From: a virus
Direction: 5' to 3' (one strand)
Length of the DNA: 49,046 nucleotides
IMG/VR virus record: IMGVR_UViG_3300037245_000994
Coordinates: 1 to 49,046 of that record
Below, piece after piece: positions 17,012 through 30,775 of the stretch; position 1 is the first letter of the stretch; each line of letters opens with the position of its first letter. The notes under the pieces were generated by a model. It ran no database searches. It was not told the DNA's origin and saw only the letters and a program-made list of their open reading frames with translations. The position numbers and the translations under genes were made by a program.

Positions 17012-17163
17012 ATTCGCTTCCACACCTTCCTTGCTGCCTCTTGATCCTCCAACAATTTTATGCGCGCGTTAGATCCACGCTGTTCTTTCCTGAACTTGGC
17101 ACTCAGCCAAATCAGAGCAATCCCAAAGCCGATTACAGGGGCCAGTGCGAATATTAAGATCAT
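17008..17163 (-). CDS. Small single-span membrane protein, 51 aa
   Basis: GGAGG lies six bases before ATG 17163, two bases after the previous stop. Residues 1-22 form a hydrophobic helix (ILIFALAPVIGFGIALIWL), followed by a basic helix rich in Lys, Arg and Glu. The stop overlaps the polymerase start as ATGA. A membrane-anchored micro-protein coupled to the polymerase is unusual. Function unknown. Confidence 0.7.
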   Translation of the reverse strand: MILIFALAPVIGFGIALIWLSAKFRKEQRGSNARIKLLEDQEAARKVWKRI

Positions 17164-17164
17164 A

Positions 17165-17626: not shown

Positions 17627-17637
17627 CGTTAGTCTCC

Positions 17638-18003: not shown

Positions 18004-18014
18004 TTCATTTCTCC

Positions 18015-18710
18015 TCAAAAATTGCTGTCGTGGTATTTTTCACCCTTACCACATTGCATAATTATGTGTTCCGGCACCCCATTTAGCACAACACCTGATG
18101 ATAGAATTGATCGGGTTATTTGTTCTTCTGCATAAGCAAAGGCATACGCCTCATCATCTATCCCACATCCAGTGTCCATGCCGAACCAACGCCGCAATGG
18201 GTTGGCAGACCAGTTTATCCCGCCCTTAGAGTGACAATGCCCCATCACCACAGACATGCCCATCTTGGCTGATAGATTCCAAGCGGGTGTTTTACCACCG
18301 CCTTTTTTATGCCCATGACAATAGAACACATCATCTATGACAACGTGTCGCACCCATCTCCAACGAGGTGTTTTCCATAATTCTGCATAGTCCCGAATAA
18401 ACTTACCGGGAATACCATAGGCTTCTGCCACACGCCGTGGGCGAGCATCATGGTTTCCAACACACACGTAAGCATCAGGGAACGCTTTGTACCACATTTG
18501 TATTTTCTCCAAAGCAAGGGTGTACTCATCCATAGCACCTGGAGCTTCAGGATTGTGCGTGTGAAATGTTATAGCCGACCAATCTACCACGTCGCCGATT
18601 AAAACTACGGTGTCGCATTTTTTCTTTCGCCTAATGTCCTTGTTGAATTTCAAATAACCTTTACGCGACACAGGTTCGTGTATATCGCCCACGGCAAGAA
18701 CGTCACTCAT
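18015..18710 (-). CDS. Calcineurin-like metallophosphoesterase, 231 aa
   Basis: All metal-binding motifs are present in order: GDIH (D9, H11), GDVVD (D40), GNHD (N86, H87), CHGH near 131-134 and GHCH (H158, H160). Phage members hydrolyse phosphodiesters or phosphomonoesters, including nucleic acids and small nucleotides; the substrate is unknown here. The stop forms part of the next ribosome site. It lies between a DUF1937-like protein and the polymerase. Confidence 0.92.
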   Translation of the reverse strand: MSDVLAVGDIHEPVSRKGYLKFNKDIRRKKKCDTVVLIGDVVDWSAITFHTHNPEAPGAMDEYTLALEKIQMWYKAFPDAYVCVGNHDARPRRVAEAYGIPGKFIRDYAELWKTPRWRWVRHVVIDDVFYCHGHKKGGGKTPAWNLSAKMGMSVVMGHCHSKGGINWSANPLRRWFGMDTGCGIDDEAYAFAYAEEQITRSILSSGVVLNGVPEHIIMQCGKGEKYHDSNF

Positions 18711-18725
18711 CTCATTTCCTCCAAT

Positions 18726-19133
18726 TTACTGTCGATCACGGGGGATAACCACAATGTCGTCATAAAACAAAACAGACAACCCGCGAGCTTCGATCCGTTC
18801 CTTCTCAGCCTTGCAACCAGAAGAGTTTTCCCAACCAGGAGCGAGAATGATCCCGTCCCAGTCTGTCTTGTCAATAACCTCATTGTCTAGTTGATACCAA
18901 AGTTCGTGTTCACTACGAGCGAGAAACTCAGGGCAGGCGCGGTGTATTGGGTGCGTATGTGAGATCGGAGCGTAAACATTATATCCCCGCAGGAATAACT
19001 CCGCCGCCCGAACATTGCACAATACAAAGTTTGCCTCTTCTCCCTCTGGTATAAAGTTTCCAGCTTTGTCCCGGCATGTATAAGGGTGAGCAAAATACCA
19101 AAGACCTCTACTTGTACTTTTTGTTATTTCCAT
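18726..19133 (-). CDS. DUF1937-like nucleoside deoxyribosyltransferase-fold protein, 135 aa
   Basis: YFAHPYT near the start, then RAAELFLRGYNVYAPISHTH, DGIILAPGWENSSGC and a final strand match the small Rossmann-like family related to nucleoside 2-deoxyribosyltransferases (DUF1937/DUF4406 type). A role in nucleotide or nucleoside metabolism is likely. It overlaps the upstream homing-nuclease remnant by ten bases. Confidence 0.75.
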   Translation of the reverse strand: MEITKSTSRGLWYFAHPYTCRDKAGNFIPEGEEANFVLCNVRAAELFLRGYNVYAPISHTHPIHRACPEFLARSEHELWYQLDNEVIDKTDWDGIILAPGWENSSGCKAEKERIEARGLSVLFYDDIVVIPRDRQ

Positions 19134-19441
19134 GCTTTTTTCCTCACAATTTTTCCAATAGTTTCTTTATGTACCTCGAATAGTGCAGCTAATTCTTTTT
19201 GCAAGACTAATCCGGTAGCATACCAATCACGGATCATTCTCACTAAAAATGGAGTAAGTTTGGCCCCACCATTTTCAACACCACAAGCCCTTTTGAAATT
19301 CCGAGTCCCATGCTTGACCTTGCGGTAGCCATCTTTTTCAAAAGGTTTCAACCACCCACCCCTTACTCGTGGTCTTGCCTTGGTCCATATCTTGCCAGCC
19401 TTAGTAATGAAGTAATGTGGATAACCCAGTATTGGTTTCAT
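19124..19441 (-). CDS. NUMOD4-type homing endonuclease remnant lacking the HNH core, 105 aa
   Basis: The first 40 residues (GYPHYFITKAGKIWTKAR, RGGWLKPF) match the start of the intact endonuclease at 23726-24223. The last 60 residues match its C-terminal helix-turn-helix (GGAKLTP, KELAALFEVHKETIGKIV). The HNH part between them is missing: the text jumps from DGYRKV to KHGTRN. The frame is open, so it looks like an in-frame deletion leaving a DNA-binding protein without nuclease. It may be decaying or reused as a regulator. Confidence 0.75.
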   Translation of the reverse strand: MKPILGYPHYFITKAGKIWTKARPRVRGGWLKPFEKDGYRKVKHGTRNFKRACGVENGGAKLTPFLVRMIRDWYATGLVLQKELAALFEVHKETIGKIVRKKAWK

Positions 19442-19442
19442 A

Positions 19443-20264
19443 CTAATACCCTTTAGGGGTCGGGGCTGTGCGGTCTTTCTTAGCAGTCCAATCGTCGCAT
19501 TGATTAACCCGCCCACCGTCTCCATCCTGTTCTGTCTCGTGTATTTCTTTCACACAGTTTGATTCACCGTCACCAGTATAGTTCGCACAGGTGTCTTTAC
19601 ACTGTGTATTACTGGAGTCCGCCTTCAACGGCATTGAGGCTACGTAGCCTACCTCATCAGCTTCAGCGGCCAACTGGTCTGCTATAAGTGGGGGCTCATT
19701 GAAATTCTTGTGTGCCCCACCCGGAGCCGGGACATTGTCAATACCTTTGACACCTTTTTCTTCCTTGAGCACCTCATGCAAATACCCCATCGTGTTGAAA
19801 AGCTCGGCGCACAGACAGTCTTGAAGGTCCAACCCCTCGTCAGTCACCTTTTTGTATCCCCGGTGCATCAGCCAAGTATCCAGGAAGTGTCGCCACTTAC
19901 CCTTCATATATCGCCAAAGAGGTATACCCCCCTGCCAGTTGTCGGAGTCACGCAACGTACCGTCAGCCTGCACCTGGCATTTGTGCATATACTCTGAGTA
20001 TCGCAGCATTACCAAAGGCGAGAAGAATCCTTCGGGGTCGATCTTAGTTTCGCACTTTGTTCGGGTTGCTCCGCTTTTGTAGGACTCCATCGACACCGCA
20101 ATATCTTTCTCTGCGGCCATCTTCTCAATCTTCGATACAAAACTCGGACACTCAATTCCTGTTGTGTGGGTAGCTCGGGTCAATTTACACATGTCATCTT
20201 CGCCATTTTCACAGTTTTTGCAATAGTGTTCGGACACAACACTCACCTCCAATTTTTCTGCCAT
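19443..20264 (-). CDS. dATP/dGTP diphosphohydrolase N-terminal-domain (DUF5664-like) protein, 273 aa
   Basis: A Cys-containing N-terminus (CKNC) precedes a domain at about 60-170 with SGATRTK, GFFSPLVMLRYSEYMHKC, RDSDNWQGGIP, MKGKWRHFLDTW and a closing acidic helix. I recognise this as the phage dATP/dGTP diphosphohydrolase-type domain, an all-alpha NTP pyrophosphatase relative. A low-complexity, Cys-containing tail follows. It would alter dNTP pools. No PurZ was found, so there is no sign of 2-aminoadenine genome synthesis. Confidence 0.75.
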   Translation of the reverse strand: MAEKLEVSVVSEHYCKNCENGEDDMCKLTRATHTTGIECPSFVSKIEKMAAEKDIAVSMESYKSGATRTKCETKIDPEGFFSPLVMLRYSEYMHKCQVQADGTLRDSDNWQGGIPLWRYMKGKWRHFLDTWLMHRGYKKVTDEGLDLQDCLCAELFNTMGYLHEVLKEEKGVKGIDNVPAPGGAHKNFNEPPLIADQLAAEADEVGYVASMPLKADSSNTQCKDTCANYTGDGESNCVKEIHETEQDGDGGRVNQCDDWTAKKDRTAPTPKGY

Positions 20265-20415
20265 TTCTTGTTACTAGACCCTGCCCACGCAACTCCGCAT
20301 AAAAAATATTATATTCTAGCTGAGTTATTTCTCCATAGGCAAGAGCTATACGCAACTCTCGTTCTCGCCGCCCCGTCGCACATGGGCGCATTTTATCACC
20401 TTTACCAGCGGCCAT
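20209..20415 (-). CDS. Small basic protein, 68 aa
   Basis: The ATG overlaps the upstream stop (TAATG) and GGGGGA is upstream. Residues 20-50 form a helix-rich segment followed by RNGRKIGG. The last 56 bases overlap the next gene in another frame, which is more than elsewhere in this arm. No family recognised. Confidence 0.5.
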   Translation of the reverse strand: MAAGKGDKMRPCATGRRERELRIALAYGEITQLEYNIFYAELRGQGLVTRNGRKIGGECCVRTLLQKL

Positions 20416-20855
20416 TAGTCATCCCCCAATATCTCACGCAGCAAGGACTTATCTCGCTCCGCCTGAATCGCCAACTCAGCGTTCAGTTCCTGGAGAAGTG
20501 CCCCACAAAAAAGCTGTGGCCACTCTTGTTTCAGTCGCTTAAACCACACGACTACGGTGTCCTTGTTAACCTTCATCTCCACCGCCAACTCACGGATCGA
20601 CAGGGTGTTATGCCCGGCAAAATTGACATACGCCTGCACAGCCCGCAGAGGCAGCCCAATGACCAGCATCTTAGCAGCGATCAGGTGATACACCCTCTCT
20701 GGCCCTGCGTCTGCCAGCCCCAGTTCAGGCATCTCACACGCCAAGGCAGCAGTCTCGCTCAACGGCTTCAATGTGGGCTTCCACCTGCGCTGTGGCTTCG
20801 GCCTCAACGCTATCTCGTGATCTGCATACCATTTTTGGATCTCATCTTTTGTCAT
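20415..20855 (-). CDS. Putative helix-turn-helix DNA-binding protein, 146 aa
   Basis: The ATG overlaps the upstream stop as ATGA. A helix-turn-helix is visible near residues 87-107 (SIRELAVEMKVNKDTVVVWF), flanked by a basic N-terminus and an acidic helical C-terminus. It could be a transcriptional regulator or a terminase-small-like protein. Its place as second gene after the shared promoter at 21233-21267 makes a regulatory role attractive. Confidence 0.65.
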   Translation of the reverse strand: MTKDEIQKWYADHEIALRPKPQRRWKPTLKPLSETAALACEMPELGLADAGPERVYHLIAAKMLVIGLPLRAVQAYVNFAGHNTLSIRELAVEMKVNKDTVVVWFKRLKQEWPQLFCGALLQELNAELAIQAERDKSLLREILGDD

Positions 20856-21214
20856 TGTCCGGCCCCTAAATGTGCTTCAAGAACAGCTTTTTTACTCTCG
20901 GCACTCAATTTTGCAGTCACATCGCGGCCCCTTACAACAAAGCAGACGCCGATGTCCGCTAGGCTTTCTTGAAGATTGCAGTCGTTGATGGCAATAAAAG
21001 TTTCTGTTTCCTCATCCATAATTAAGGTGTTGGCAACCGCTGAACCATCGACTGGGAAGTTACCATGCCCCACCACCCTGTACTCGATAAGTCGCCCGCT
21101 AGCCCTATGCCGCTGTACCCGCCCGCCGGACAGGATCGCCCCGTTTAATAGTCTGCTCCACGCATTATTTGTTGTGACCACCATATCACCTATTTTGAAT
21201 AGCCTAGTGCTCAT
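20852..21214 (-). CDS. Hypothetical protein, 120 aa, first gene behind the shared promoter
   Basis: GGAG lies seven bases before the ATG. The protein begins with a KIGDMVVTTNNAW pattern like small beta-barrel domains, and the C-terminal half is mixed. It is the first gene of the leftward operon started by the promoter element at 21233-21267, 18 bases upstream. No family recognised. Confidence 0.65.
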   Translation of the reverse strand: MSTRLFKIGDMVVTTNNAWSRLLNGAILSGGRVQRHRASGRLIEYRVVGHGNFPVDGSAVANTLIMDEETETFIAINDCNLQESLADIGVCFVVRGRDVTAKLSAESKKAVLEAHLGAGQ

Positions 21215-21232: not shown

Positions 21233-21267
21233 TGTTGCCCTCTATATATAGCCGCGATGTACGGGTA
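21233..21267 (-). promoter_or_regulatory. Shared phage promoter element, leftward copy
   Basis: Read on the minus strand: TACCCGTAC (21267-21259), eight bases, TATATATAG, then AGAGGGCAACA (21243-21233). The same parts in the same order occur on the plus strand at 27602-27635 with one base difference in spacing. The TATA part fits a -10 box and the AGAGGG part the transcript start. There is no -35 consensus; the TACCCGTAC box takes its place, as in activator-dependent phage promoters. Confidence 0.7.
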
Positions 21268-21402
21268 AAAACAGCCCTCACGACCTTTTAACATTTCACA
21301 AAATCCCCAGTTTGCAGAAAAAATTCACTTTTCTTTGGGTTTCTTGTTGGATGTAATAATTCTAACGGTTGTAGAGCCAAATTCATAATTTATCTCCACA
21401 AA

Positions 21403-21424
21403 GGCTGAACCCGATTGTCCAGCC
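21403..21424 (-). terminator. Hairpin, possible terminator or attenuator of the upstream leftward operon
   Basis: In minus-strand RNA, GGCUGGAC pairs with GUUCAGCC (one G-U pair) around a six-base loop, followed by UUUGUGG. It comes 12 bases after the stop at 21437 and before the promoter at 21267. The U-tract is short, so termination may be partial. Confidence 0.5.
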
Positions 21425-21436
21425 AATCTTGCAGGT

Positions 21437-21967
21437 TTACAGTTTGTCTATGATGTTGAAGAGGAATTCGGCCTCTTCAAGTTGAACCAGAGGTGTGCCA
21501 AATCCTCCACAGGCAATGTCGAAATTGACAATAATCGGTTTCCCCTCGTGTAAGCAGTAAACCTGTCTGCCCGCGCTATTCTTGAACACATCCCCATGCA
21601 CCCACTCATGTTCTGGCTTGACAGGCACAACAGGCTCCGCTGTCCTGATCGCATCGAGGCGGAGGATTTCGCGGCAGAATGCTCCGGGGTGAGCGTGGTA
21701 ATGATATGGATTATTCGATCCCTGACAATCGAATTCAGGGGCCACCAAACGACCTGGACATTTGGTGCAACTGCAATCACCAGTTTCCTGACAGAAAAAA
21801 CAATCAGCCTCCAATTTGTTCACAAACTCTGGCGCATTCTCTTTCAGCCACACCTTCTTCAACTCTTCCACACTCCGCCCATCCAGCATCGTGTCTATTC
21901 GGAACGCAATCCACTCCCACATCCGTTTGGTGTAGCTCCAGGTTTCGTCCAACGTCAGTTTTCTCAT
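21437..21967 (-). CDS. Cys-rich hypothetical protein, 176 aa
   Basis: GAGGAG precedes the ATG. The N-terminal 45 residues are helical; then CFFCQETGDCSCTKC (about 56-70) forms a likely zinc site. The C-terminal half is a beta-rich domain ending in an acidic helix. It is the last gene of the upstream leftward operon. No family recognised. Confidence 0.7.
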   Translation of the reverse strand: MRKLTLDETWSYTKRMWEWIAFRIDTMLDGRSVEELKKVWLKENAPEFVNKLEADCFFCQETGDCSCTKCPGRLVAPEFDCQGSNNPYHYHAHPGAFCREILRLDAIRTAEPVVPVKPEHEWVHGDVFKNSAGRQVYCLHEGKPIIVNFDIACGGFGTPLVQLEEAEFLFNIIDKL

Positions 21968-21979
21968 TTTCTTTTCTCC

Positions 21980-22276
21980 TCAAAAGGGTAATTCTTCACT
22001 CATTTCAATTGTGATCCCAGTGGCACGCCTCACGCGGCGCTCCACTAACTCTGTAATTGACACCTCCTCTAAATTATCACGACAAAAATTGAAATCGTCG
22101 CCGTCCCGATGATCCACGCAAGGATCGACACGTCCGAGTAAGAATTGTTCCAGAGACAACGGCACACCAGTCTCCATCGTCCACACCCGCCAAATACCTC
22201 GGCAATCCTCTTGTGCTACCCAATCGAATAACCGGACTCGGGCAAGGTCTTGGTGGCTCACGATTACGACCTTCAC
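21980..22276 (-). CDS. HNH-like fragment protein, 98 aa
   Basis: GTG 22276 overlaps the upstream TGA as GTGA. Residues about 44-68 (LEQFLLGRVDPCVDHRDGD, then NFCRDNLEEVS) resemble the core of phage HNH endonucleases (the VDHxxGDxxDNRxxNL pattern), but the Asn/Arg part is altered and no DNA-binding domain follows. It may be a decayed homing nuclease or an adapted small protein. Confidence 0.55.
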   Translation of the reverse strand: MKVVIVSHQDLARVRLFDWVAQEDCRGIWRVWTMETGVPLSLEQFLLGRVDPCVDHRDGDDFNFCRDNLEEVSITELVERRVRRATGITIEMSEELPF

Positions 22277-22515
22277 GGCAGCACCTCTTCCATTGCTTGA
22301 AGCACTTTGTCAACATGCTCGCTGTATTCGGGGTATTGTGGATCATACCACAAATTGCCCCTGCGTGTCCAAATGTGGGTACACAGCAACATGCAATAAA
22401 CCTGATCGAGTAATGACCGGCGATTAAACCCAGGCTCGACGACCATAGCTTTTGCTTGTAGTAAATTCAAGCTCTTATCAAGCTCTGGCTTCTTTATCTC
22501 GGGCGGTCCGGTCAT
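22273..22515 (-). CDS. Hypothetical protein, 80 aa
   Basis: AAGGAG lies seven bases upstream and the ATG overlaps the previous TGA. The middle (NRRSLLDQVYCMLLCTHIW) is a helix with two Cys, and the end is acidic. Part of a run of five genes linked by ATGA or GTGA overlaps. No family recognised. Confidence 0.65.
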   Translation of the reverse strand: MTGPPEIKKPELDKSLNLLQAKAMVVEPGFNRRSLLDQVYCMLLCTHIWTRRGNLWYDPQYPEYSEHVDKVLQAMEEVLP

Positions 22516-22685
22516 TTACCGCACTCCTTACAGTATTTTTCCCACTCTTCGGGATTGGTAGCCGTTCCTGTTCTAATAATTTGTGTTATGTTCCCAAGAC
22601 CAAGAGTAACAAGCCAAGATTCACCCGTATGTTTATGTCGGATAATATCCCCTCGTTTTAGTTTATTCATCTCTCCTTTTGTCAT
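22512..22685 (-). CDS. Small protein, 57 aa, SH3-like candidate
   Basis: ATG 22685 is chosen because the upstream stop overlaps it as ATGA; ATG 22670 is an alternative. The sequence KLKRGDIIRHKHTGESWLV resembles small SH3-like barrels. The end carries CKECGK. The gene falls below usual length cut-offs but has clean signals on both sides. Confidence 0.65.
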   Translation of the reverse strand: MTKGEMNKLKRGDIIRHKHTGESWLVTLGLGNITQIIRTGTATNPEEWEKYCKECGK

Positions 22686-22837
22686 TTCCTCTTCCTTGCT
22701 GGGTGTTTCGCGCCGCAGTCACGTTGACAAGGACAGTCGTTGCCTCGGCCTTTTAGTTTATAAGGCTTAGGGTGCCTCTCTTGCGGCTTCCGACTCGACC
22801 AACATCCGCCTTCGTTGCCGAAATTCATCCAGATCAT
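22682..22837 (-). CDS. Small Cys-containing basic protein, 51 aa
   Basis: The start overlaps the upstream stop and its own stop overlaps the next start, both as ATGA. Cys at 12 and a CPCQRDC cluster (about 35-41) suggest metal binding; the C-terminus is basic (ARKRK). No family recognised. Confidence 0.6.
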   Translation of the reverse strand: MIWMNFGNEGGCWSSRKPQERHPKPYKLKGRGNDCPCQRDCGAKHPARKRK

Positions 22838-23010
22838 CTCATCCCCCGCGTCTTTACAAAATAATTTTTCCGCAAAACAAACTTCCCGCGCTCGACCATG
22901 TGCCGATGCTTAAAGGCAGTTAATGAGCCTGTTTCTGGTGTTGACGTCCAAGATGGCCTGGATGTGTCACCATCTAATACATACCTGATTGATGGTTTTT
23001 TGAATTTCAT
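22834..23010 (-). CDS. Small basic protein, 58 aa
   Basis: GGAGG lies eight bases before ATG 23010; the longer frame upstream is not needed. The protein is basic and without Cys. It begins the chain of overlapping mini-genes running to 21980. No family recognised. Confidence 0.6.
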   Translation of the reverse strand: MKFKKPSIRYVLDGDTSRPSWTSTPETGSLTAFKHRHMVERGKFVLRKNYFVKTRGMR

Positions 23011-23052
23011 TTTCTTTACCTCCAAACTCTATTGACTAAATTCATAATGCAA

Positions 23053-23072
23053 GGCAGGCATTTAATCCTGCC
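23053..23072. other. Six-base-pair hairpin between mini-genes
   Basis: GGCAGG and CCTGCC form a perfect stem around an eight-base A/T-rich loop, 13 bases after a stop and about 40 bases before the next start on the minus strand. There is no T-tract. It could be a processing or stability hairpin. Confidence 0.4.
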
Positions 23073-23085
23073 CTGCGTTACAAAT

Positions 23086-23205
23086 TCACCCCAGAATTTC
23101 TTCGATCATGTCATCTACTTCTTCCTTGCTGGTAAATCCGTTCTCGACTAACTCTTTGATGTCTGCCAGCATTTCGTTTATACTCTGCTTTATGTCGTCT
23201 GTCAT
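23086..23205 (-). CDS. Small acidic helical protein, 39 aa
   Basis: A strong GAGGAGG site, itself the end of the upstream gene, lies six bases before the ATG. The peptide is acidic and helical (many Asp, Glu, Ile, Met). An acidic micro-protein in an early region could inhibit a host enzyme, but nothing in the sequence shows this. Confidence 0.65.
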   Translation of the reverse strand: MTDDIKQSINEMLADIKELVENGFTSKEEVDDMIEEILG

Positions 23206-23209
23206 TCTG

Positions 23210-23353
23210 TCACCTCCTCAATTTAACATCCACACTAAACTCCATCGCCCAAATCAGAGCTATCGACCACCAGTCAACTCGGCCAGTATAACCAAGCCAA
23301 ATAGTAAATGGAACTAACACTAATGTTGCCAAATTTATTGATTTTATCCGCAT
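23210..23353 (-). CDS. Small membrane protein, 47 aa
   Basis: GGAGG lies upstream and the start overlaps the previous stop by ten bases. Two hydrophobic stretches (about 7-20 and 28-40) with Trp-rich boundaries suggest a hairpin of two membrane helices. Its last codons form the ribosome site of the next gene. Function unknown. Confidence 0.65.
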   Translation of the reverse strand: MRIKSINLATLVLVPFTIWLGYTGRVDWWSIALIWAMEFSVDVKLRR

Positions 23354-23529
23354 TCTGTCGCCTCCTCAATCAATTCAACATTTCGACTACCGCAACTCGT
23401 ACAAAATGGTTCTGTGTCGCCTCTGTCGTTTACTGGTGCTTCGCCAAGCGTTTCCCCCGTCAATATATCGCCGCACTTAGGGTTGCCGCACTGGTAAATT
23501 TGTGGTTCGTGTCCTGTGAGTCTGTTCAT
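23344..23529 (-). CDS. Zinc-ribbon protein, 61 aa
   Basis: ATG 23529 overlaps the upstream TGA as ATGA. CGNPKCG and CTSCGS (about 14-20 and 43-48) make a two-pair zinc ribbon. Such mini-ribbons are common in phage early regions and often bind host RNA polymerase or DNA. No specific family. Confidence 0.65.
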   Translation of the reverse strand: MNRLTGHEPQIYQCGNPKCGDILTGETLGEAPVNDRGDTEPFCTSCGSRNVELIEEATECG

Positions 23530-23690
23530 GGTCCTGGTTCTCCGATAGGCTTGCGACCTTTTCGTTTTACTATGCCGAGGGCACGCAAAAAGCACGGTTG
23601 GCACAGCCCCTCTTTACGTCCGTTGCCTGGATTGTAAATATGTCTTGCCAGTTGTTGTTTACCGCACCCACTGCAATAGTACCGCATCAT
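23526..23690 (-). CDS. Zinc-finger mini-protein, 54 aa
   Basis: GGGGGG lies four bases before ATG 23690; a second ATG follows at once. CSGCGK (6-11) and CQPC (30-33) give a four-Cys zinc site, followed by a basic tail. The stop overlaps the next start as ATGA. The reading frame is too short for common cut-offs. Confidence 0.65.
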   Translation of the reverse strand: MMRYYCSGCGKQQLARHIYNPGNGRKEGLCQPCFLRALGIVKRKGRKPIGEPGP

Positions 23691-23725
23691 TGTACCCCCC
23701 TCAATTCAAATCGGCAAGGATATAC

Positions 23726-24223
23726 TCAAATATGTTTCCACGTTCGTCTGTGCACAATACGGTGTATGGCACTTGGGGTGACGCTGAACATTTCAGCAAG
23801 CTCCCGCTGTCGAATACCCATCCAACGGATATTCCATAGCTGCCGAATCAATATCACAATTGAGTCCGTCAATTTGGCAGACCCGCTTTGTTCGCCGCGT
23901 AGTAAAGTGCCGTGTTCAATTTTGTCTAATTCATTCTCAGCATGTGTCCCCCATTTCAAGTTTTTTAGATTGTTATTAGCAGGATTCCCGTCAAGGTGCC
24001 TACATTCCATTCCATGTGGGCGAAGGCCAACATAAGTTTCCAACACAAGACGATGGATGCACGTAGACCGCATCTTGTTATCGCGGTACAGGCCAACTAT
24101 TAAATGTCCTCCCGCACCTATGCAAGGCTTCAGCCACCCGCCTCTGGTTGTCGTGCGTTTCTTCGACCACACCCGTCCAGTTTTTGTGATCGAATAATTG
24201 GGATAGCCTGGTATCTGTTTCAT
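23726..24223 (-). CDS. NUMOD4-HNH homing endonuclease, 165 aa
   Basis: The N-terminus is a NUMOD4 motif (GYPNYSITKTGRVWSK). Residues 55-92 hold the HNH core (CIHRLVLETYVG, MECRHLDGNPANN, LKNLKWGT). The last 50 residues form a helix-turn-helix (RQRELAEMFSVTPSAIHRIV). It is expected to cut DNA near its own insertion point. It is an intact relative of the remnant at 19124-19441. Confidence 0.93.
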   Translation of the reverse strand: MKQIPGYPNYSITKTGRVWSKKRTTTRGGWLKPCIGAGGHLIVGLYRDNKMRSTCIHRLVLETYVGLRPHGMECRHLDGNPANNNLKNLKWGTHAENELDKIEHGTLLRGEQSGSAKLTDSIVILIRQLWNIRWMGIRQRELAEMFSVTPSAIHRIVHRRTWKHI

Positions 24224-24231
24224 TCCGCCCC

Positions 24232-24534
24232 CTATTCGCTGCTTTTATTCAAGTCAACGAGGCTGTATTCGCCACTGTCGATTTTCTTTTGTGTTTCCTT
24301 CTTCGTCTCACCGAGGAATTGGTTGCGGTATCGTCCGGTTGTGACACTGTAGTCCCATTTGTCGCGGTCAAGTTGTGTGTGGTTCTTGGCGCTAACAGGA
24401 TCAGTCCAGATTCTTGCAATTATAGTGGAGTAGCTTTGAAATATTGTCACTACTCCTGTTTCTAATACATTCGTAATAATGAACTGATTGGCAATCTTGT
24501 TGCCCCGACTGCTGGTCATGTTTTCTACTTTCAT
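24232..24534 (-). CDS. Phage hypothetical protein, 100 aa
   Basis: AAGGA lies nine bases upstream. The sequence starts with a segment ending RGNKIA and has a middle beta-rich part, then WDYSVTTGRYRNQFLGE and a charged helix. Similar proteins occur in many phage early regions, without function. Confidence 0.65.
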   Translation of the reverse strand: MKVENMTSSRGNKIANQFIITNVLETGVVTIFQSYSTIIARIWTDPVSAKNHTQLDRDKWDYSVTTGRYRNQFLGETKKETQKKIDSGEYSLVDLNKSSE

Positions 24535-24546
24535 GGTCTTTGTTCC

Positions 24547-24738
24547 TTAATTCGTTATAATTTGTAAATTGTCGCCCGTGTCCCATGGCGTAGGTTGCCA
24601 CACACCCATTGACATGGCTGGCTCAAATTCGACGGTCTGTTGTCTGCCGCGTCCTTCGTAATTCTGCCAGCAAACAGATTTCACAACGAACACGTCGTCG
24701 GTGTAAACGTTCCGCACTTTATCGCCTTTTTTGAACAT
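24547..24738 (-). CDS. Small protein with SH3-like start, 63 aa
   Basis: GGAG lies eight bases before the ATG. FKKGDKVRNVYTDDVFVV fits a small beta-barrel start. No Cys pair; the single Cys is isolated. No family recognised. Confidence 0.6.
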   Translation of the reverse strand: MFKKGDKVRNVYTDDVFVVKSVCWQNYEGRGRQQTVEFEPAMSMGVWQPTPWDTGDNLQIITN

Positions 24739-24758
24739 TGTCGTTTCTCCAATTTACC

Positions 24759-25004
24759 TCAAACCAAGTAAACAAGTTCAGCGTGTTTGTGATTGGCTGA
24801 CAAACGTGAACCGTCGTCCAAAAACCAGAACGCATGATCTTTGAGCCATTGTTCATCTGAGATAAGGGGGATTGTCGGCTGTCCTGAAATGTTAGACCAC
24901 ACATATTGACGTTGTTTGTTCTCTGTGGTCCAGCGGTATATGAACGCCGACAAGACTTGTTTGGTTTGTTCCTGGTTTAGATCGTCGCCTTTGATTAGTT
25001 TCAT
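24759..25004 (-). CDS. Hypothetical protein, 81 aa
   Basis: GAGGA, formed by the end of the previous gene, precedes the ATG. The sequence is helical at first and then rich in Trp and Asp; IPLISDEQWLKDHAFWFLDDG is typical of small soluble phage proteins. No family recognised. Confidence 0.6.
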   Translation of the reverse strand: MKLIKGDDLNQEQTKQVLSAFIYRWTTENKQRQYVWSNISGQPTIPLISDEQWLKDHAFWFLDDGSRLSANHKHAELVYLV

Positions 25005-25008
25005 CGTC

Positions 25009-25128
25009 CTATCCTCGTTTCAATGCTCTATAAAATTGTTTGGCCATCCGAACATCGGTGAACAGCCACGTCATCGGCCCTTGCCGCACACAATACGTTC
25101 CGTCGTTGTTCTGAAATATTCTGGTCAC
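25009..25128 (-). CDS. Small protein, 39 aa
   Basis: GTG 25128 overlaps the upstream TGA as GTGA and has GGAGGT close upstream. The reading frame extends further up, but that part overlies the previous gene. The peptide has an aromatic, mixed composition ending in a basic helix. No function assigned. Confidence 0.55.
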   Translation of the reverse strand: MTRIFQNNDGTYCVRQGPMTWLFTDVRMAKQFYRALKRG

Positions 25129-25214
25129 TTTGACCTCCACAATACTACGATGCTCATTGTTAGCACACCCACACACCATCCGGCGTAGGCTACTGCTGCG
25201 TAGTTTATCCACAT
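25125..25214 (-). CDS. 29-residue single-span membrane peptide
   Basis: GGAG lies nine bases before ATG 25214. Residues 5-25 are hydrophobic (AAVAYAGWCVGVLTMSIVVL) and the end is basic. An in-frame longer reading begins further upstream without a ribosome site. The stop overlaps the next GTG. Confidence 0.5.
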   Translation of the reverse strand: MWINYAAVAYAGWCVGVLTMSIVVLWRSK

Positions 25215-25287
25215 AGGTCTAATCTCCATAACCATTATTGGTTCTACTATAGTATACACGATGATTGAACACATTACAAGGGAATTC

Positions 25288-25584
25288 TCAATATTCTTCT
25301 TGGCAACATTGTAACGCGGTATCTTCGCCGAGTACAGTACAGCCACATTCAGGACAACAACAAACACGATATTCTGGCAATGCTCGACCAATAGATGCAG
25401 CGTAGACATTAGAGACGACACCAGATGCATCTATGTGGCCGCCCATGGCGTCAAGGCGATTAGCCATAACCATCGCACTGCAACCGCCGAAAACAGTGTT
25501 GTTGGTGGCAATGCGGGCTAATTTGGCGGTAGTCCTGTCGTCTTTATCCAACAAGTTCTTGATACACCCTGTTTCTATATTCAT
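25288..25584 (-). CDS. Hypothetical protein with C-terminal zinc-binding Cys cluster, 98 aa
   Basis: GAGGG lies upstream at good spacing. The first 70 residues are mixed and soluble; the end has CCCPECGC and a final CC, a probable metal site. No family recognised. The 73-base gap that follows has no ribosome site of its own except that used by the next micro-gene. Confidence 0.65.
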   Translation of the reverse strand: MNIETGCIKNLLDKDDRTTAKLARIATNNTVFGGCSAMVMANRLDAMGGHIDASGVVSNVYAASIGRALPEYRVCCCPECGCTVLGEDTALQCCQEEY

Positions 25585-25597
25585 GTTGTTACCCTCA

Positions 25598-26011
25598 TTA
25601 CATAGATTCTAAAGTATCGTTCCCAAAACTTTCGCCGATTATCTCATATAGATAGTCTTTGATATCCTGGTGTTTTCCAAACCGGCCGACAATCTTGAAA
25701 ATAAGTTTGCCAAACATATCACGAACACTGCCTTTGATTGTAACAGTAAAATCGATTGTGCCACAATACATGCCGTTTTCGTTCATCCAGTGATATCCAT
25801 TGGCGCAAATCAAGTCCTTGCCATTGTTGGTATAGAACCGCCAATCATAATCAATGCCTGATCCATGTGGTAATGCCTCAAGCAATTCTGTTGTAATACG
25901 TTCCCAATGTCGATCCGTCCATTCCTGTCTGCCGTTTGGATTATTATCGTTAGCACAGTTGAGATAAGCCTGCCATGTTTGCAATAAGTTGAATTTATGT
26001 TCTGTTTTCAT
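25598..26011 (-). CDS. First gene of the main leftward operon, hypothetical, 137 aa
   Basis: GGAG precedes the ATG, and a near-consensus sigma70 promoter lies 23-51 bases upstream (26034-26062). The protein is soluble and rich in Trp, Tyr and Asn, with a mixed alpha/beta composition. As the first gene read after infection it could be a host take-over factor, an inference from position only. Confidence 0.7.
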   Translation of the reverse strand: MKTEHKFNLLQTWQAYLNCANDNNPNGRQEWTDRHWERITTELLEALPHGSGIDYDWRFYTNNGKDLICANGYHWMNENGMYCGTIDFTVTIKGSVRDMFGKLIFKIVGRFGKHQDIKDYLYEIIGESFGNDTLESM

Positions 26012-26033
26012 AGTCCTGCTCTCCTTTTTTTAT

Positions 26034-26062
26034 ATTATAACCTGCAAACACTAACATTGCAA
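26034..26062 (-). promoter_or_regulatory. Sigma70-type early promoter, leftward
   Basis: On the minus strand: -35 TTGCAA (26062-26057), a 17-base spacer, and -10 TATAAT (26039-26034), a perfect -10. Transcription would begin near 26027, just before the ribosome site of the first leftward gene. Likely a host-polymerase early promoter. Confidence 0.8.
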
Positions 26063-26113
26063 ATGAATTCTTGGAAATGACGGAAAATAGATGAAATTGT
26101 TGCGGCATCATAA

Positions 26114-26189
26114 TACAATCGTTACAATCGCCACAACCCACAGACCACTATCGGACCTGTGTTTGGCGTTACAGGTATTACAATCGTTA
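26114..26189. repeat. ACAATCG direct repeats
   Basis: TACAATCGTTA occurs at 26114-26124 and 26179-26189, and a third ACAATCG at 26124-26130. They could be iterons or binding sites for an initiator or regulator, just upstream of the early promoter. Confidence 0.5.
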
Positions 26190-26276
26190 TAAACCCAACC
26201 TAAGCAAGTGTGCTTTCATGGAGTTTTGCTCCGAGTAACACTACGAGAGGCCGATGTAGCAGATTGTAACACTTCA

Positions 26277-26568
26277 GTATACACATTTGAAATGGGCTAA
26301 AACCTTATGACATAAAGACTTATCAATAAATGTCACCCTGGTAGCAGATAATTTTTCTTTTACTTCCTTATAGCATATAGGACTGCGCATGTATTGTCTT
26401 GTGTTGTCTTATGCAAACCATACATGCCCTTACATAAGCCTTTATTACTAAGAGCATATTCCCTCCTGTATACTAATACACTATTTTATCTGCTATCTGT
26501 ATACAACTAGGGAAAAATAGAGATAGTGATATAAAGAACAAGGGTTTTCTTGACAAAGAGGTGTATAC
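26277..26568. repeat. Four GTATAC palindromes within 290 bases
   Basis: Copies start at 26277, 26468, 26499 and 26563. A given hexamer is expected about once per 4 kb, so four in 290 bases is a clear cluster. They may be operator or initiator sites. Confidence 0.55.
26342..26495. other. Nested inverted repeats
   Basis: TAGCAGATAA (26342-26351) is the exact reverse complement of TTATCTGCTA (26486-26495). Inside lies GCATGTAT (26387-26394) against ATACATGC (26420-26427). Two perfect arms of 10 and 8 bp, one inside the other, could form a cruciform or bind a dimeric factor. Confidence 0.6.
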
Positions 26569-26576
26569 GTAAGTGT

Positions 26577-26706
26577 ATGCGCATGTGTTACGGTAACATA
26601 TAAGCCCGAGTACTACGGACCATAGTAGATGTTAGGCGTTTATCTAACAAGAGTCGGGTCCTGGAACGACATCTGTAGAGCTGCCTCTACACTTGTAAAA
26701 CTACAA
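26577..26706. other. Run of five short palindromes
   Basis: In order: ATGCGCAT (26577-26584), TGTTACGGTAACA (26586-26598), TGTTAG/CTAACA (26630-26649), TGTAGAG-CTGC-CTCTACA (26674-26691, seven perfect pairs) and TTGTA/TACAA (26693-26706). Such density suggests single-strand folding or protein binding, as at replication origins. No T-tract follows, so it is not a simple terminator. Confidence 0.6.
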
Positions 26707-26782
26707 CCCTCATAATCCCTACAACCCCACCTTATGTGCTTAAGCCTGGCGTAGTAGCAGACACAACCGCTTTTGGTTAAGC

Positions 26783-26956
26783 CTATTTGTGTGGAAAGTA
26801 AGGCATAATGTGCTTGCTGGGTGTTCGTGATCCCCTCGCTTCTGCGCATTTGCGGCACCACAAGCCATTCTCGCTATTCTGTGCGGGAGTGCGATGTTTT
26901 TTGCAGACCAATACTCCATCATCATACTCAAATCTATCTGTGCTTCTGACGTTCAT
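26783..26956 (-). CDS. Zinc-finger mini-protein, 57 aa
   Basis: AGGAG lies seven bases before ATG 26956. CKKH (18-21) and CRKC (34-37) form a likely four-ligand zinc site, with basic residues around. It is the third gene of a leftward mini-operon from the promoter at 27272-27300. Confidence 0.6.
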   Translation of the reverse strand: MNVRSTDRFEYDDGVLVCKKHRTPAQNSENGLWCRKCAEARGSRTPSKHIMPYFPHK

Positions 26957-26988
26957 ACTCATACTCCTAATAGATTGTTGTTGTCGTC

Positions 26989-27069
26989 TTAGCATAGGCT
27001 AACGTAGGCCCATAGAGCCAGCATCAGCACGTTCTTCCATGTCCATCGGTTGTATGTGTAGGTGTTCAT
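26989..27069 (-). CDS. 26-residue membrane peptide
   Basis: GGGGGG lies five bases before ATG 27069, 11 bases after the previous stop. The peptide has a polar aromatic start and a hydrophobic end (VLMLALWAYVSLC). Short, but signals and position support it. Confidence 0.45.
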   Translation of the reverse strand: MNTYTYNRWTWKNVLMLALWAYVSLC

Positions 27070-27080
27070 GTTATCCCCCC

Positions 27081-27233
27081 TCAGAGACCTGCCTGTTGTT
27101 GTTTAGTTGTCTTGCTTCCAAGCCATTTGCGTAGGCAGGGCGCACACACACGTCGCTTGCCATTGACCACCAAAGTATACTGCCCTGCATTTTTCTTGCC
27201 ACACATGGCACATGCTCTCTTTATTCTTGGCAT
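27081..27233 (-). CDS. Zinc-ribbon mini-protein, 50 aa
   Basis: GAGGGG lies eight bases before ATG 27233. CAMCGKK (8-14) and CAPCLRKW (30-37) with a beta hairpin between (YTLVVNGKRRV) are a clear zinc ribbon. It is transcribed from its own promoter just upstream and is among the earliest leftward genes. Such proteins can bind RNA polymerase or DNA; the target is unknown. Confidence 0.7.
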   Translation of the reverse strand: MPRIKRACAMCGKKNAGQYTLVVNGKRRVCAPCLRKWLGSKTTKQQQAGL

Positions 27234-27271
27234 TACTCATACCCCTCACACAGGCACCATTGCCTACACAT

Positions 27272-27300
27272 ACCATAAGGTATAGAACATCACATGCCAA
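27272..27300 (-). promoter_or_regulatory. Sigma70-type promoter for the leftward mini-operon
   Basis: On the minus strand: -35 TTGGCA (27300-27295), 17-base spacer, -10 TATGGT (27277-27272). Five of six and four of six consensus bases match. It lies 38 bases upstream of the zinc-ribbon gene at 27233. Confidence 0.65.
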
Positions 27301-27355
27301 ATAGATTCTCAGAATAATGCAAAGACAGTGAAGAATGTCCTTGACAGTAGAGTAG

Positions 27356-27414
27356 CCGATAACAAAGGATCGCGGCTTATCGGACCCCCGGGTAGCACCC
27401 TTGACTTATCGGAC
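27356..27414. repeat. CTTATCGGAC direct repeats with an inverted copy
   Basis: CTTATCGGAC occurs at 27376-27385 and 27405-27414, 29 bases apart, and the reverse form CCGATAA at 27356-27362. CCTTGAC stands near two of them. They look like operator sites controlling the rightward promoter, or origin boxes. Confidence 0.55.
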
Positions 27415-27437
27415 TGGAGTGGGCGGGGTTCCTTATC

Positions 27438-27468
27438 TTGGACGAAGAGGACTCCTGAAAATTATAAT
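27438..27468 (+). promoter_or_regulatory. Weak sigma70-like promoter, rightward
   Basis: TATAAT at 27463-27468 is a perfect -10, but the best -35 (TTGGAC, 27438-27443) is 19 bases away, longer than ideal. It could give basal rightward transcription upstream of the shared element. Confidence 0.35.
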
Positions 27469-27601
27469 ATTTTTTTCCCTACCGATATGAGTCAAGACCT
27501 TCCCTACTAAAGAGTTATAGAGATAAGGAGGTAGATTGTCAAGGAGAACTTTCTCACATCTCTCATTTTCCAAATAATTATTAGGCTGAAAACGCGGTAA
27601 A

Positions 27602-27635
27602 TACCCGTACCTGACTCCCTATACAGAGGGCAACA
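27602..27635 (+). promoter_or_regulatory. Shared phage promoter element, rightward copy
   Basis: TACCCGTAC (27602-27610), nine bases, TATACA, then AGAGGGCAACA (27625-27635). It ends 19 bases before the first rightward gene, and its twin at 21267-21233 ends 18 bases before a leftward gene. A common regulator or modified polymerase is inferred. This is the best candidate start for the whole virion operon. Confidence 0.7.
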
Positions 27636-27654: not shown

Positions 27655-27861
27655 ATGAGCACAAAGGCAAAAATACAAGCGTGGTTGCCAGTGATGAAGG
27701 AGATTGAGGCGGCGGGGCACGATCCTGTGAAACTCATGTTCAGCGGAAAAATATCTATCGCAGCGTGTGAGATCATATATCGTGCCATAACCGTGTGCAA
27801 GACAAAATATCCTGAGTGGTATTTGGTAATGGGGCCAGCGTGTGAAATATTGGGGGTGTGA
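27655..27861 (+). CDS. First gene of the rightward operon, 68 aa
   Basis: GGGGG lies six bases before the ATG. The protein is helical and soluble with two Cys. It may be a small DNA-binding or terminase-related protein, but no motif is decisive. It ends one base before the protease gene. Confidence 0.65.
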   Translation: MSTKAKIQAWLPVMKEIEAAGHDPVKLMFSGKISIAACEIIYRAITVCKTKYPEWYLVMGPACEILGV

Positions 27862-27862
27862 G

Positions 27863-28711
27863 ATGAGTGAAGCGAGGGGATCAGCGATGAAAAATCTGTT
27901 ACCATACATTCTGTGTGTAATCTTTGGCATCGGCAGCATTGTCGGTACGTACAAGTTCATGGACAGACTAATTATCGAGCCAGATCTGCAACTCTTCACC
28001 AACCAGGTCCAGACTTCGCTGAAGGGTGTGGTTCACCTTCAGGCCCCCCGATGGCAAGGGAGTGGGTTTGTGGTTGGGCCGAGGCATATTGTGACCGCGT
28101 GGCATTGCGCAAACGACACAGAGGACTTTCTTCTGACCACGCACGACGGGCATCAGATCCAGGCAACCAGAGCATACAGCAACAAAGACAGCGATGTTGC
28201 CCACATTTGGGTAGACGATCTTACGTGCGTTGCCGAGGATTGCGATGTAAAAGGTTGGATCGGCGGCACAGAAGAAAGATCGTTCGTTCTTGGCGAACAC
28301 GAAGTCGCACTCACTCCGCTTCCTCTTGGCAGTATCGAGGATGTCAGATTGGGCCAGAGTGTTTATTCAATAGGCAGCACATTCGGCAAAGTGCATTTCA
28401 ATGCAGTCGCTACGGGCATTATTCAGACATTGGACCTCAGACTCGAAAATTTTGGGTGTTCTCCTAACTATCGGTGGGCAACATTGTTTAGCAATACAGC
28501 AGAAGGTGCGGGAGGAAATAGCGGATGTCCATTGTTTACATTCGATGGTAAAGTTATTGGTGTCTGGGTTGGGAGTATGGGCAATACCGTGCATTACTGT
28601 ATTCCAGTGGATGTGTTTGCAAACGACATTTCTATGATTTCCTTGTTGTTTGCGATGGATCGTTATGAGGTAGAAGAAGCCGTTCAAGACCAGTATGAAT
28701 ATTACAATTAA
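27863..28711 (+). CDS. Membrane-anchored trypsin-like serine protease, 282 aa
   Basis: ATG 27863 has GGGGG six bases upstream; an in-frame GTG at 27842 overlaps the previous gene and is not preferred. Residues 11-30 form a membrane helix. The catalytic triad of the chymotrypsin/HtrA fold is visible: His81 in TAWHC, Asp111 in DVAHI, Ser220 in GAGGNSGCP. No PDZ domain follows. The topology is an N-terminal anchor with an exposed protease domain. It opens the virion operon; maturation of capsid or envelope proteins, or defence against host factors, are possible roles. Confidence 0.85.
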   Translation: MSEARGSAMKNLLPYILCVIFGIGSIVGTYKFMDRLIIEPDLQLFTNQVQTSLKGVVHLQAPRWQGSGFVVGPRHIVTAWHCANDTEDFLLTTHDGHQIQATRAYSNKDSDVAHIWVDDLTCVAEDCDVKGWIGGTEERSFVLGEHEVALTPLPLGSIEDVRLGQSVYSIGSTFGKVHFNAVATGIIQTLDLRLENFGCSPNYRWATLFSNTAEGAGGNSGCPLFTFDGKVIGVWVGSMGNTVHYCIPVDVFANDISMISLLFAMDRYEVEEAVQDQYEYYN

Positions 28712-28728
28712 TTTTGGGGGGTGAAGAA

Positions 28729-28959
28729 ATGCCGAAGTTGAATCCTGAAGAGGTGAAAGCCAGAGGACTGCCCGATGCGAAGACAGCACTCCGCAAGACT
28801 CTGATGTCAGACCAACAAGAGCGGCTAGGGTCAGAGATCGACCGTGCTCGTGATTTTGGGCAGGCACATATTGAGAAGAAATACGGTATGCCATTTCACG
28901 AATGGGTGAAGAAGAGAAAACAGAAACGGGAGAGTGAAGAAAATGAAAATGTTAGCTGA
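28729..28959 (+). CDS. Small charged helical protein, 76 aa
   Basis: GGGGGG lies seven bases before ATG 28729; the longer in-frame start is not needed. The sequence is rich in Lys, Arg and Glu and mostly helical. Its end overlaps the GroES gene by 17 bases. It might be a terminase small subunit-like or assembly protein; not recognised. Confidence 0.65.
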   Translation: MPKLNPEEVKARGLPDAKTALRKTLMSDQQERLGSEIDRARDFGQAHIEKKYGMPFHEWVKKRKQKRESEENENVS

Positions 28960-29284
28960 CACAGTTTTAGTCATGGAACACAAGGGTAGAGACGCCAGCG
29001 ATGGAGGTATTATCTTGCCCGAGGGATCGAAGCAGAGGACATATCAAGGATCAGTGATCGCAGTCGGGCCAGGGAAACCTTTGCCTGATGGTGGTCGGTA
29101 TCCGATGTCAGTTCGAGTGAATGACGTGATCGCCTACCCGGAGAGAACCGGCGACAAGGTGACAATCGAAGGTCAGGAGATGTTGGCGATCCCGGAGCAG
29201 TATATTATTTGTGTTTTGATTGAAGCAGATCCGAAAGACTTAAGTCCGGGCGATGAAGCCAATATGCGGGCGGAGGAAAACTAA
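28943..29284 (+). CDS. GroES-like co-chaperonin, 113 aa
   Basis: The start (ATG 28943) leads into LADTVLVMEH, a mobile-loop region GGIILPEGSKQRTYQGSVIAVGPG, VNDVIAYPE and EQYIICVL, which is the GroES (Cpn10) pattern from end to end. It would replace the host GroES on GroEL, as T4 gp31 does, to fold the capsid protein. The C-terminal 20 residues after the GroES core are acidic and extra. It overlaps both neighbours, so it is coupled to the virion operon. Confidence 0.9.
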   Translation: MKMLADTVLVMEHKGRDASDGGIILPEGSKQRTYQGSVIAVGPGKPLPDGGRYPMSVRVNDVIAYPERTGDKVTIEGQEMLAIPEQYIICVLIEADPKDLSPGDEANMRAEEN

Positions 29285-29634
29285 TGGGTGATGTACATCT
29301 GATTAAAAATAGCGACGGCTCTTGGATCGACCCCGCCGAAGCAGGTTTGCAGGAAGAGTTGATCCGCGAAGTTAAGAAGTTGGAGTCAGCAACCTTCGAC
29401 GTGAAGTTTCAAGCATTGACTCTTGGGGTTGGCTTGGTAGGAACTCCGGCATCCCACGGTTGTAAGCGTGTGAAGTTCTGGACAGCCCTCTCCGATTGTT
29501 ATGTGGGTGATGCAGATAGCCAGCCGGTTCTGCTTGTGGCCTCGATCTGGAATGATTTGTCCATCAACAATGTGGGAAATCTGAGGTTTGTTTCGGCTTC
29601 GGGTGGGCCTGTATACTTGATTTCGAGCAACTAG
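29284..29634 (+). CDS. Putative small virion protein, 116 aa
   Basis: The start overlaps the GroES stop (TAATG). The sequence is beta-rich and small-residue rich (TLGVGLVGTPASHGCKRVKFW), as in capsid decoration or adaptor proteins. The stop is followed by AGGAG for the next gene. The structural role is inferred from composition and context. Confidence 0.65.
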   Translation: MGDVHLIKNSDGSWIDPAEAGLQEELIREVKKLESATFDVKFQALTLGVGLVGTPASHGCKRVKFWTALSDCYVGDADSQPVLLVASIWNDLSINNVGNLRFVSASGGPVYLISSN

Positions 29635-29641
29635 GAGTGAC

Positions 29642-30052
29642 ATGCAATATGATTACGAGAAGGATTCAGTTTTGTTTGCCGGTATGTATGATGAAGCGGA
29701 CAACACTATATACATTTCATACGGGTTACGCAAAGCCGCGACTGAAGTAGTGTACTATCACGAGAGAGAACATCGTGAGTGTTTTTTAAGGGGATGTTTC
29801 TGTTATAAGCACACCAGTAATTTCTGGGCAGAATATCATGCGTATACGGGTGAACTCAAATCTGTGATTGCCCGGAACAATAGGTCTGTGACTAAGGCGT
29901 ATTTTCTGAGTGTGGTCCTATCCTTGATTGAATCCAAGAAACACCCTAAAGTGTGGTTGGATAATAGCCGGGCTTTGAGGCGTGTTATGCGCACTCGCTT
30001 ATATAAGGAGTTTGAACGACGTGAATTCAGAAGGAAAAGCACGCCAAAGTAA
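29642..30052 (+). CDS. HExxH metallopeptidase-like protein, 136 aa
   Basis: HEREH at 40-44 matches the HExxH zinc motif of gluzincin/ImmA-type peptidases, and Glu64 in FWAEYHA could be the third ligand. The C-terminal half is basic and helical. The last 32 bases overlap the next gene. A small cytoplasmic peptidase in front of the terminase could process a virion protein or cleave a host regulator; activity is not shown. Confidence 0.6.
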   Translation: MQYDYEKDSVLFAGMYDEADNTIYISYGLRKAATEVVYYHEREHRECFLRGCFCYKHTSNFWAEYHAYTGELKSVIARNNRSVTKAYFLSVVLSLIESKKHPKVWLDNSRALRRVMRTRLYKEFERREFRRKSTPK

Positions 30053-30569
30053 TCTGGCAGCACATGGCACTAAGGCCCGCATCTCTCCGGTGGTGTCTCA
30101 GTTGTTTCGAGCTATTGGTTCTGAGATGACCGAGATGGTTTGCATCAAGGTGCCGGACAGCAAGACCGGGGCTATGGAAACGCGGCTAGTGTCCAAAGCT
30201 GAGGCGATGGTGCGGGATCTTTATGAGCAGGCGATGCCTGTGTCTATATTGGATCTGGATGGCATGAACTCCAAAACTCTTATCCTGCGAGGCAAAGGTC
30301 AGATGGATGCCCGGAAGTTGATTCTGGCACACACCATTGACAAGAATGCCAAAGATCCGTCAGGCGAGACAGTGGCGGACAAGGTGTCAGACCTGAACAA
30401 AAACAGATTGAACGCAATAGCAACGGGTGGCAAGAAGGAGACAGCGTGTGGAACGAAACCGAAAGAAAAGGCGAAGAGTAAAAAACTCAAAGTCCCGTGC
30501 GTGGTTATGCGCGTGCGGAGTGAAACTGAAGTGCGAGGGGATTTGCCGAGCGGTGAATCTGTTTCGTAA
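30021..30569 (+). CDS. Putative terminase small subunit-like protein, 182 aa
   Basis: GTG 30021 is chosen because AAGGAG lies ten bases upstream; the longer frame from 29982 runs over the previous gene. The protein is soluble and helical with a Lys-rich segment near residues 135-160. It stands two small genes before the large terminase, which suits a small terminase subunit, but no helix-turn-helix was clear. The last 120 bases overlap a zinc-finger gene in another frame. Confidence 0.55.
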   Translation: MNSEGKARQSNLAAHGTKARISPVVSQLFRAIGSEMTEMVCIKVPDSKTGAMETRLVSKAEAMVRDLYEQAMPVSILDLDGMNSKTLILRGKGQMDARKLILAHTIDKNAKDPSGETVADKVSDLNKNRLNAIATGGKKETACGTKPKEKAKSKKLKVPCVVMRVRSETEVRGDLPSGESVS

Positions 30570-30621
30570 GGATAGGGTGTCAGTAGAAAAATGTCCTTCA
30601 GCTTTTACAGTACAGGGGTGA
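30448..30621 (+). CDS. Basic zinc-finger mini-protein, 57 aa
   Basis: GTG 30448 has AAGGAG seven bases upstream. The N-terminus is very basic (RNRKKRRRVKN). CACG (about 22-25), two further Cys near 32 and 36 and one near 50 suggest a zinc site. It overlaps the previous gene by 122 bases in a different frame and ends four bases before the next ATG. The strong signals make it credible despite the overlap. Confidence 0.5.
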   Translation: MERNRKKRRRVKNSKSRAWLCACGVKLKCEGICRAVNLFRKDRVSVEKCPSAFTVQG

Positions 30622-30625
30622 TGAG

Positions 30626-30775
30626 ATGAAGAAGAGTCATCAGTGGCAAGAATTGGTGGAGGTTAGGTGTCCTCATTGTGGGAAAGTGGCTACATACGAC
30701 GATGCGGGGGACATAAGCGACATCATAAAGTGCTGTTTGTGTGGTCAGAATTTTGAACTCGGGGAGCAGAAATGA
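30626..30775 (+). CDS. Zinc-ribbon mini-protein, 49 aa
   Basis: AGGGG lies seven bases before ATG 30626. CPHCGK (15-20) and CCLCGQ (36-41) are a classic zinc-ribbon pair. The stop overlaps the terminase start as ATGA, so it is coupled to terminase translation. It may be a packaging cofactor; function unknown. Confidence 0.7.
   Translation: MKKSHQWQELVEVRCPHCGKVATYDDAGDISDIIKCCLCGQNFELGEQK

Follow-up and report, generated by a model that had tools for sequence, protein, structure and literature searches.

The window analysed here, a stretch of 49,046 nucleotides (IMG/VR record IMGVR_UViG_3300037245_000994), is organized in two divergent arms, the minus strand carrying the replication genes and the plus strand the virion genes. 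An exact 127-base direct repeat at the record ends (1-127 = 48920-49046) and an ORF that starts near 48870 and crosses the junction of these ends make it probable that the record represents a whole genome with a circular map, though the record class states no end repeat. The virion operon (27655..48827, +), judged by gene content and the 127-bp end repeat, runs past the record ends to about 5228. Its first ORF (27655..27861, +) encodes 68 aa and has no family match, while the relative G025 carries an ORF with 55% identity. Genes for a protease-like protein, a GroES-like protein, TerL (30772-32721, +) and a portal-like protein (33125-34915, +) are found in this operon, together with a conserved capsid candidate (37405-38526, +) and further genes; gene order and conservation point to the portal and capsid assignments, which are thus putative. 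The GroES-like co-chaperonin is encoded near the operon start (28934-29284, +) and has matches in G002, G013 and G019. A tRNA-Ser gene with the anticodon ACT lies within the virion arm (36103-36175, +).

On the other arm, the replication operon (5178..21214, -) starts with a gene for a protein of 120 aa without family match (20852..21214, -), followed by the gene for a helix-turn-helix (HTH) protein (20415..20855, -) that is our candidate regulator for both promoters discussed below. The operon further encodes a PolA-type polymerase (15053-17023, -), an exonuclease (12930-14264, -), a Sak4-like protein (11841-12866, -) and a primase/helicase (7033-9330, -). Upstream of it lies a presumed early region (21437..27300, -) with better sigma-70 type sites, for example TTGCAA-17-TATAAT at 26062-26034 (-). 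Two HNH/HTH-type ORFs (19124-19525 and 23726-24223) share a stretch of about 100 bases with 64% identity (19342-19441 and 24124-24223, -), which suggests a duplicated homing-type gene. Clusters of 9-base repeats like GATTGTAAC/GGTTATAAT are present in the non-coding divergent region (26000-27600), and like clusters are seen in relatives (G002, 1-700; G054, about 6900-7600; G043, about 27600-28300); they are possible iterons or regulator sites.

Both operons are preceded by a copy of one element. The virion-side copy (27602-27635, +) reads TACCCGTAC CTGACTCCC TATACA GAGGGCAACA and the replication-side copy (21267-21233, -) reads TACCCGTAC ATCGCGGCTA TATATA GAGGGCAACA. The box TACCCGTAC is identical in both (27602..27610, + and 21259..21267, -). 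The -10-like hexamers, TATACA (27620..27625, +), at an aligned position common to the relatives, and TATATA (21243..21248, -), are directly adjoined by GAGGGCAACA (27626..27635, + and 21233..21242, -), which might be discriminator or initial transcribed region. Together they form a TATAYA-GAGGGCAACA block of 16 bases with 1 mismatch between the copies, and the motif GARGG within GAGGGCAACA is common to most promoters of the phage family. The copies end 19 bases before the ATG at 27655 and 18 bases before the ATG at 21214, and both first genes start with ATGAGCAC. Direct reading therefore agrees with the first-pass annotation on the two copies and on their position 18-19 bases before the operons. 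Its arrangement of box and -10 stands as well, with a spacer between them that we read as 9 bases in the plus copy and 10 in the minus copy. Two further statements hold: that a -35 consensus is missing (the best TTGACA matches are 4/6 and 3/6, with spacers of 15-19 tried) and that the box part alone recurs once in coding DNA, namely AGAGGGCAACA at 5714-5724 on the minus strand, within an ORF. The exact combined pattern occurs at just the two places in the record, a flexible scan of the record gave no third copy above 17/24, and the exact full element had 0 matches in an IMG/VR scan.

The same annotation had called this likeness far beyond chance for 49 kb, a statement that we cannot uphold. 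When the whole window is compared with itself, the twin pair ranks 7th, with a score of 19 next to many other matches at 18. Among the 24 upstream regions it is the best pair, and its score of 21 is attained in 5 out of 1000 shuffles that preserve dinucleotides. Because of this rank and these shuffles the case made by the window by itself is modest, suggestive and not overwhelming. The strong evidence for the element pair is found in the relatives, not in the window sequence.

Twin elements in related genomes

Scans with single sequences were too weak for gathering relatives (0 with TerL, 1 with primase) and alignments were needed; hence, primase and terminase alignments were used, with 80 IMG/VR loci each. 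Reading 39 related records whole or near-whole gave, with the window (G000), a set of 40 records from an uncultivated family. The nearest relative, G002, shares 63% identity in the terminase, 73% in the capsid candidate and 40% in the primase, and the part of the virion half that was tested (24 kb) has no DNA similarity to cultured phages. Gene calls and twin detection relied on custom scripts. For each genome, its own intergenic stretches on opposite strands were aligned gap versus gap, and a second twin search started from the HTH gene side.

Twins were found in 14 of the 40 genomes (G000, G002, G018, G025, G032, G035, G036, G040, G041, G043, G044, G045, G048 and G051). One copy precedes the replication operon; the other has the opposite orientation, that of the terminase gene, and precedes this gene by 2.4-6.0 kb. 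Scoring the replication-side element against about 790-1010 windows of its own genome returned the virion-side copy as the best match in 13 of 14 cases and as the third in G051. Examples are TTTTGACAGACCTGGAAGGGTATTATGGG / TTATGACAGACTTTCATTGTATTATGGG in G002, AAACCCTTCGT..TTTTGACRGGTATTA in G018 and an identical 43-base stretch, AATACGTTCGTAAAGGGAGTAGCTGGTGCATACTTATAGAAGG, in G025. That a single promoter type links the virion operon with the 20852-21214 operon is supported by the same two-place, opposite-strand layout in 13 relatives. Chance similarity, or the recent duplication of a short segment, could have been read from the 7th rank in the window self-comparison; it is contradicted by the twins at the same two places in 13 relatives, and spacers and flanks differ between copies while box and core stay, so that this explanation is hardly credible. 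A third promoter copy, on the minus strand and close to the divergent region, exists in three genomes (G018 at -3313, L114; G036 at about -35950, L239; G048 at -26373, L260), unlike the window, where no third copy of the family promoter is seen.

The layout is conserved in these genomes, with a box, no -35, a TATA-type -10 and GARGG, whereas the sequence of the box differs from genome to genome. TACCCGTAC-N7-12-TATA is present in 0 of 53 related records, some of them partial; direct conservation of TACCCGTAC across relatives, which the first-pass annotation had proposed to search for, is thus rejected. The box similarity score has a mean of 18.5 within genomes versus 7.6 between genomes, and hence the box is private to each genome and constant inside it. 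Over the 14 genomes, copy-to-copy identity peaks at about -39 to -30, -26 to -21, -12 to -9 and -5 to -3 (numbered with the -10 set at -12 to -7), as expected for a factor bound upstream plus a -10. The 28 family promoters have a mean -10 match of 4.25 of 6, while their mean -35 match of 2.89 of 6 equals the 2.89 expected by chance. The flanks and spacers change between copies and the box-to-TATA spacing varies by 1-2 bases inside genomes.

Promoters without a -35 might be read by a phage-type single-subunit polymerase, or an otherwise phage-altered one, with the box as its specificity region. The core TATA-GARGG, for example TATAGAGGG and TATAGAAGG, has an apparent likeness to T7/SP6 type starts. 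Such a polymerase is nevertheless quite unlikely. The phage-type RNA polymerase domain (PF00940) is absent from the 14 genomes, while the T7 positive control was detected at 9.9e-110; the T7 and N4 polymerases found nothing significant among the family ORFs in a pairwise and insensitive test; and the spacing between box and TATA shifts by 1-2 bases within genomes. Sigma70_r2 (PF04542) is likewise absent from the 14 genomes and was detected in 10 of 14 controls. Lacking region 2, the family HTH proteins are not a sigma factor. The upstream box that is private to each genome, the retained -10, the missing -35 and the lack of both a phage polymerase domain and a sigma region 2 together argue for host polymerase with a phage activator. 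Of the two possibilities first considered for the box, a phage activator or an altered polymerase, the former is thus favored and the latter has lost ground.

The linked HTH protein and a proposed circuit

In 14 of 14 twin genomes, one of the first two genes that follow the replication-side copy encodes a small HTH protein. The HTH protein 20415-20855, for which the first-pass annotation had suggested a binding check at both sites, gains from this as the natural candidate, since all 13 relatives have a protein of the same family at this place. The HTH profile matches in 23 of 40 records (E < 1e-5). When it was built without G000 and G002, the ORF 20415-20855 ranked first among the window ORFs (E 4.8e-5) and the matching G002 protein also ranked first (E 6.1e-6). 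In relatives, Sigma70_r4/r4_2 is found above the Pfam cut-off (G025, 4e-11; G035, 6.8e-9; G045, 3e-13). The protein of the window lacks a Pfam region 4 match above the cut-off, a confident family match and a PHROG match; its structure model has a pLDDT of 79, about 90 in the HTH part, and Foldseek returned no PDB match with E < 0.001. Only the G045 protein matches a PHROG annotated as late transcriptional activator (phrog_836, E 0.0023), and its model consists of two trihelical units in tandem (pLDDT 86). Foldseek gave none below 0.001 for this model, with sigma factors among the top weak matches, and tblastn found nothing in cultured phages. In the alignment the proteins of the window and of G002 have one recognisable HTH unit, while many members have two in tandem. 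G045 and G050 encode two HTH-family proteins each. In G045 27718-28227 (L224) and G005 9186-9596 (L096) the HTH unit is fused to an N-terminal domain that resembles the DNA-binding part of homing-type proteins.

Whether the HTH gene is the regulator or a mere neighbour, the true factor being some different phage protein or an alternative sigma of the host, has to be judged from its linkage to the twins. From genome to genome, HTH similarity does not track box similarity (Mantel r 0.07, p 0.34), which may reflect too great a divergence of the proteins; the evidence that pairs a protein with its box is therefore their linkage. Together with the seven HTH-bearing genomes without a clear twin (G034, G047, G050, G042, G052, G046 and G005), this missing correlation speaks for another factor. 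Against it stand the position of the HTH gene, first or second behind the promoter in every twin genome, and the blind first survey, in which opposite-arm pairs scoring at least 24 were confined to HTH-bearing genomes; one of these pairs, in G047, is unlike a promoter pair, and the HTH seeds were drawn from twin-selected genomes, so that the association of twin and HTH is partly conditioned. A host sigma factor would hardly explain a box re-written per genome beside a constant -10. We therefore regard another factor as improbable.

The HTH protein could also act as a repressor at both sites, with negative autoregulation and a virion operon that is held back. Autoregulated HTH genes are often repressors and the site adjoins the promoter. 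Yet the -35 is only at chance level, and for this reason the 28 promoters look weak without help; moreover, the block of conserved bases precedes the -10 and does not cover the start, and no integrase was seen among the proteins scanned, which comprise part of the ORFs. Hence, repression seems unlikely to us.

Our preferred reading, to which we assign a probability of roughly 0.64, is that both sites belong to a single class of regulated promoters, used by host polymerase and an HTH activator on a private box. The TATA-type -10 would be read by host RNA polymerase through its own sigma factor, while the -35 contact would be replaced by a phage DNA-binding protein on the box just upstream. The likeliest protein for this role would be the HTH protein 20415-20855, encoded directly behind the replication-side copy, and it most likely recruits host RNA polymerase to the two promoters, one of which is its own. 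It would switch on its own operon by positive feedback, which transcription running on from the co-directional early genes would start, and simultaneously the virion operon on the other strand. We infer transcript starts at the sites, binding of the HTH protein to the box, activation and timing from the arrangement described above. A more far-reaching idea, tentative and on balance doubtful, is that one or two sigma-region-4-like units alone serve as a detachable replacement for host sigma region 4 and give a phage-specific reading of the -35. Protein and box would be re-coded per lineage under a constant two-promoter circuit, and box length would follow the HTH number, with about 9-10 bp for one recognisable HTH (G000, G002) and about 20 bp for two.

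The analysis provides a first promoter class and a candidate regulator for an uncultivated phage family, from sequence alone. With at least 14 natural versions of the circuit that carry different boxes, a set is at hand for testing the co-change of regulator and site, and the twin-promoter signature is usable for tracing the master regulators of further uncultivated phages.

Comparison with known phage promoters

The arrangement was not found in the literature searched (open-access papers). Closest in mechanism are the MotA-dependent middle promoters of T4 and the late activators of phages. T4 middle promoters depend on sigma appropriation by MotA and AsiA (PMC2988021, PMC6755090); in nearly 60 of them a MotA box stands 12+/-1 bp away from the -10 (PMC2988021). 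The family promoters share with them a kept host -10, a phage box around -30 in place of the -35 and a small phage activator, here a candidate. In contrast to T4, each genome has two or three such promoters with a box sequence of its own, set 9-10 bp away from the -10 in the case of the window; the -10 (4.25 of 6) falls short of the excellent T4 one, and an HTH protein takes the place of the MotA double-wing fold as candidate. In a scan that covered part of the small ORFs, the HTH protein had no PHROG match that would link it to MotA or AsiA.

The RinA and Ltr families are late transcriptional regulators of Gram-positive phages (PMC13123087, PMC9867676). A small phage-encoded activator, again a candidate here, and a late promoter with a TATA-box type -10 are common to both systems, but a significant family match was not obtained. 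In those phages the regulator gene precedes the late promoter and its product turns on the late operon; the HTH gene instead belongs to the replication operon, and its product seems to govern this operon as well as the divergent virion operon. The late promoters of P1 need the phage-encoded activator Lpa, which acts on host polymerase (PMC8198154). The proposed combination of phage activator and host polymerase is similar.

Likeness to T7-type promoters is found in the TATA followed by a purine-rich GARGG, but no phage-type RNA polymerase gene was detected and the spacing is not fixed. The HTH units of several relatives match sigma-70 region 4 (PF04545, PF08281) above the curated cut-off; unlike sigma factors, the family HTH proteins are without region 2, and many have tandem HTH units. 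Thus, activator-dependent phage promoters without a -35 are already known, while the sigma-4-like regulator family, the pairing of its own with the virion promoter and the box that is re-written per genome are new.
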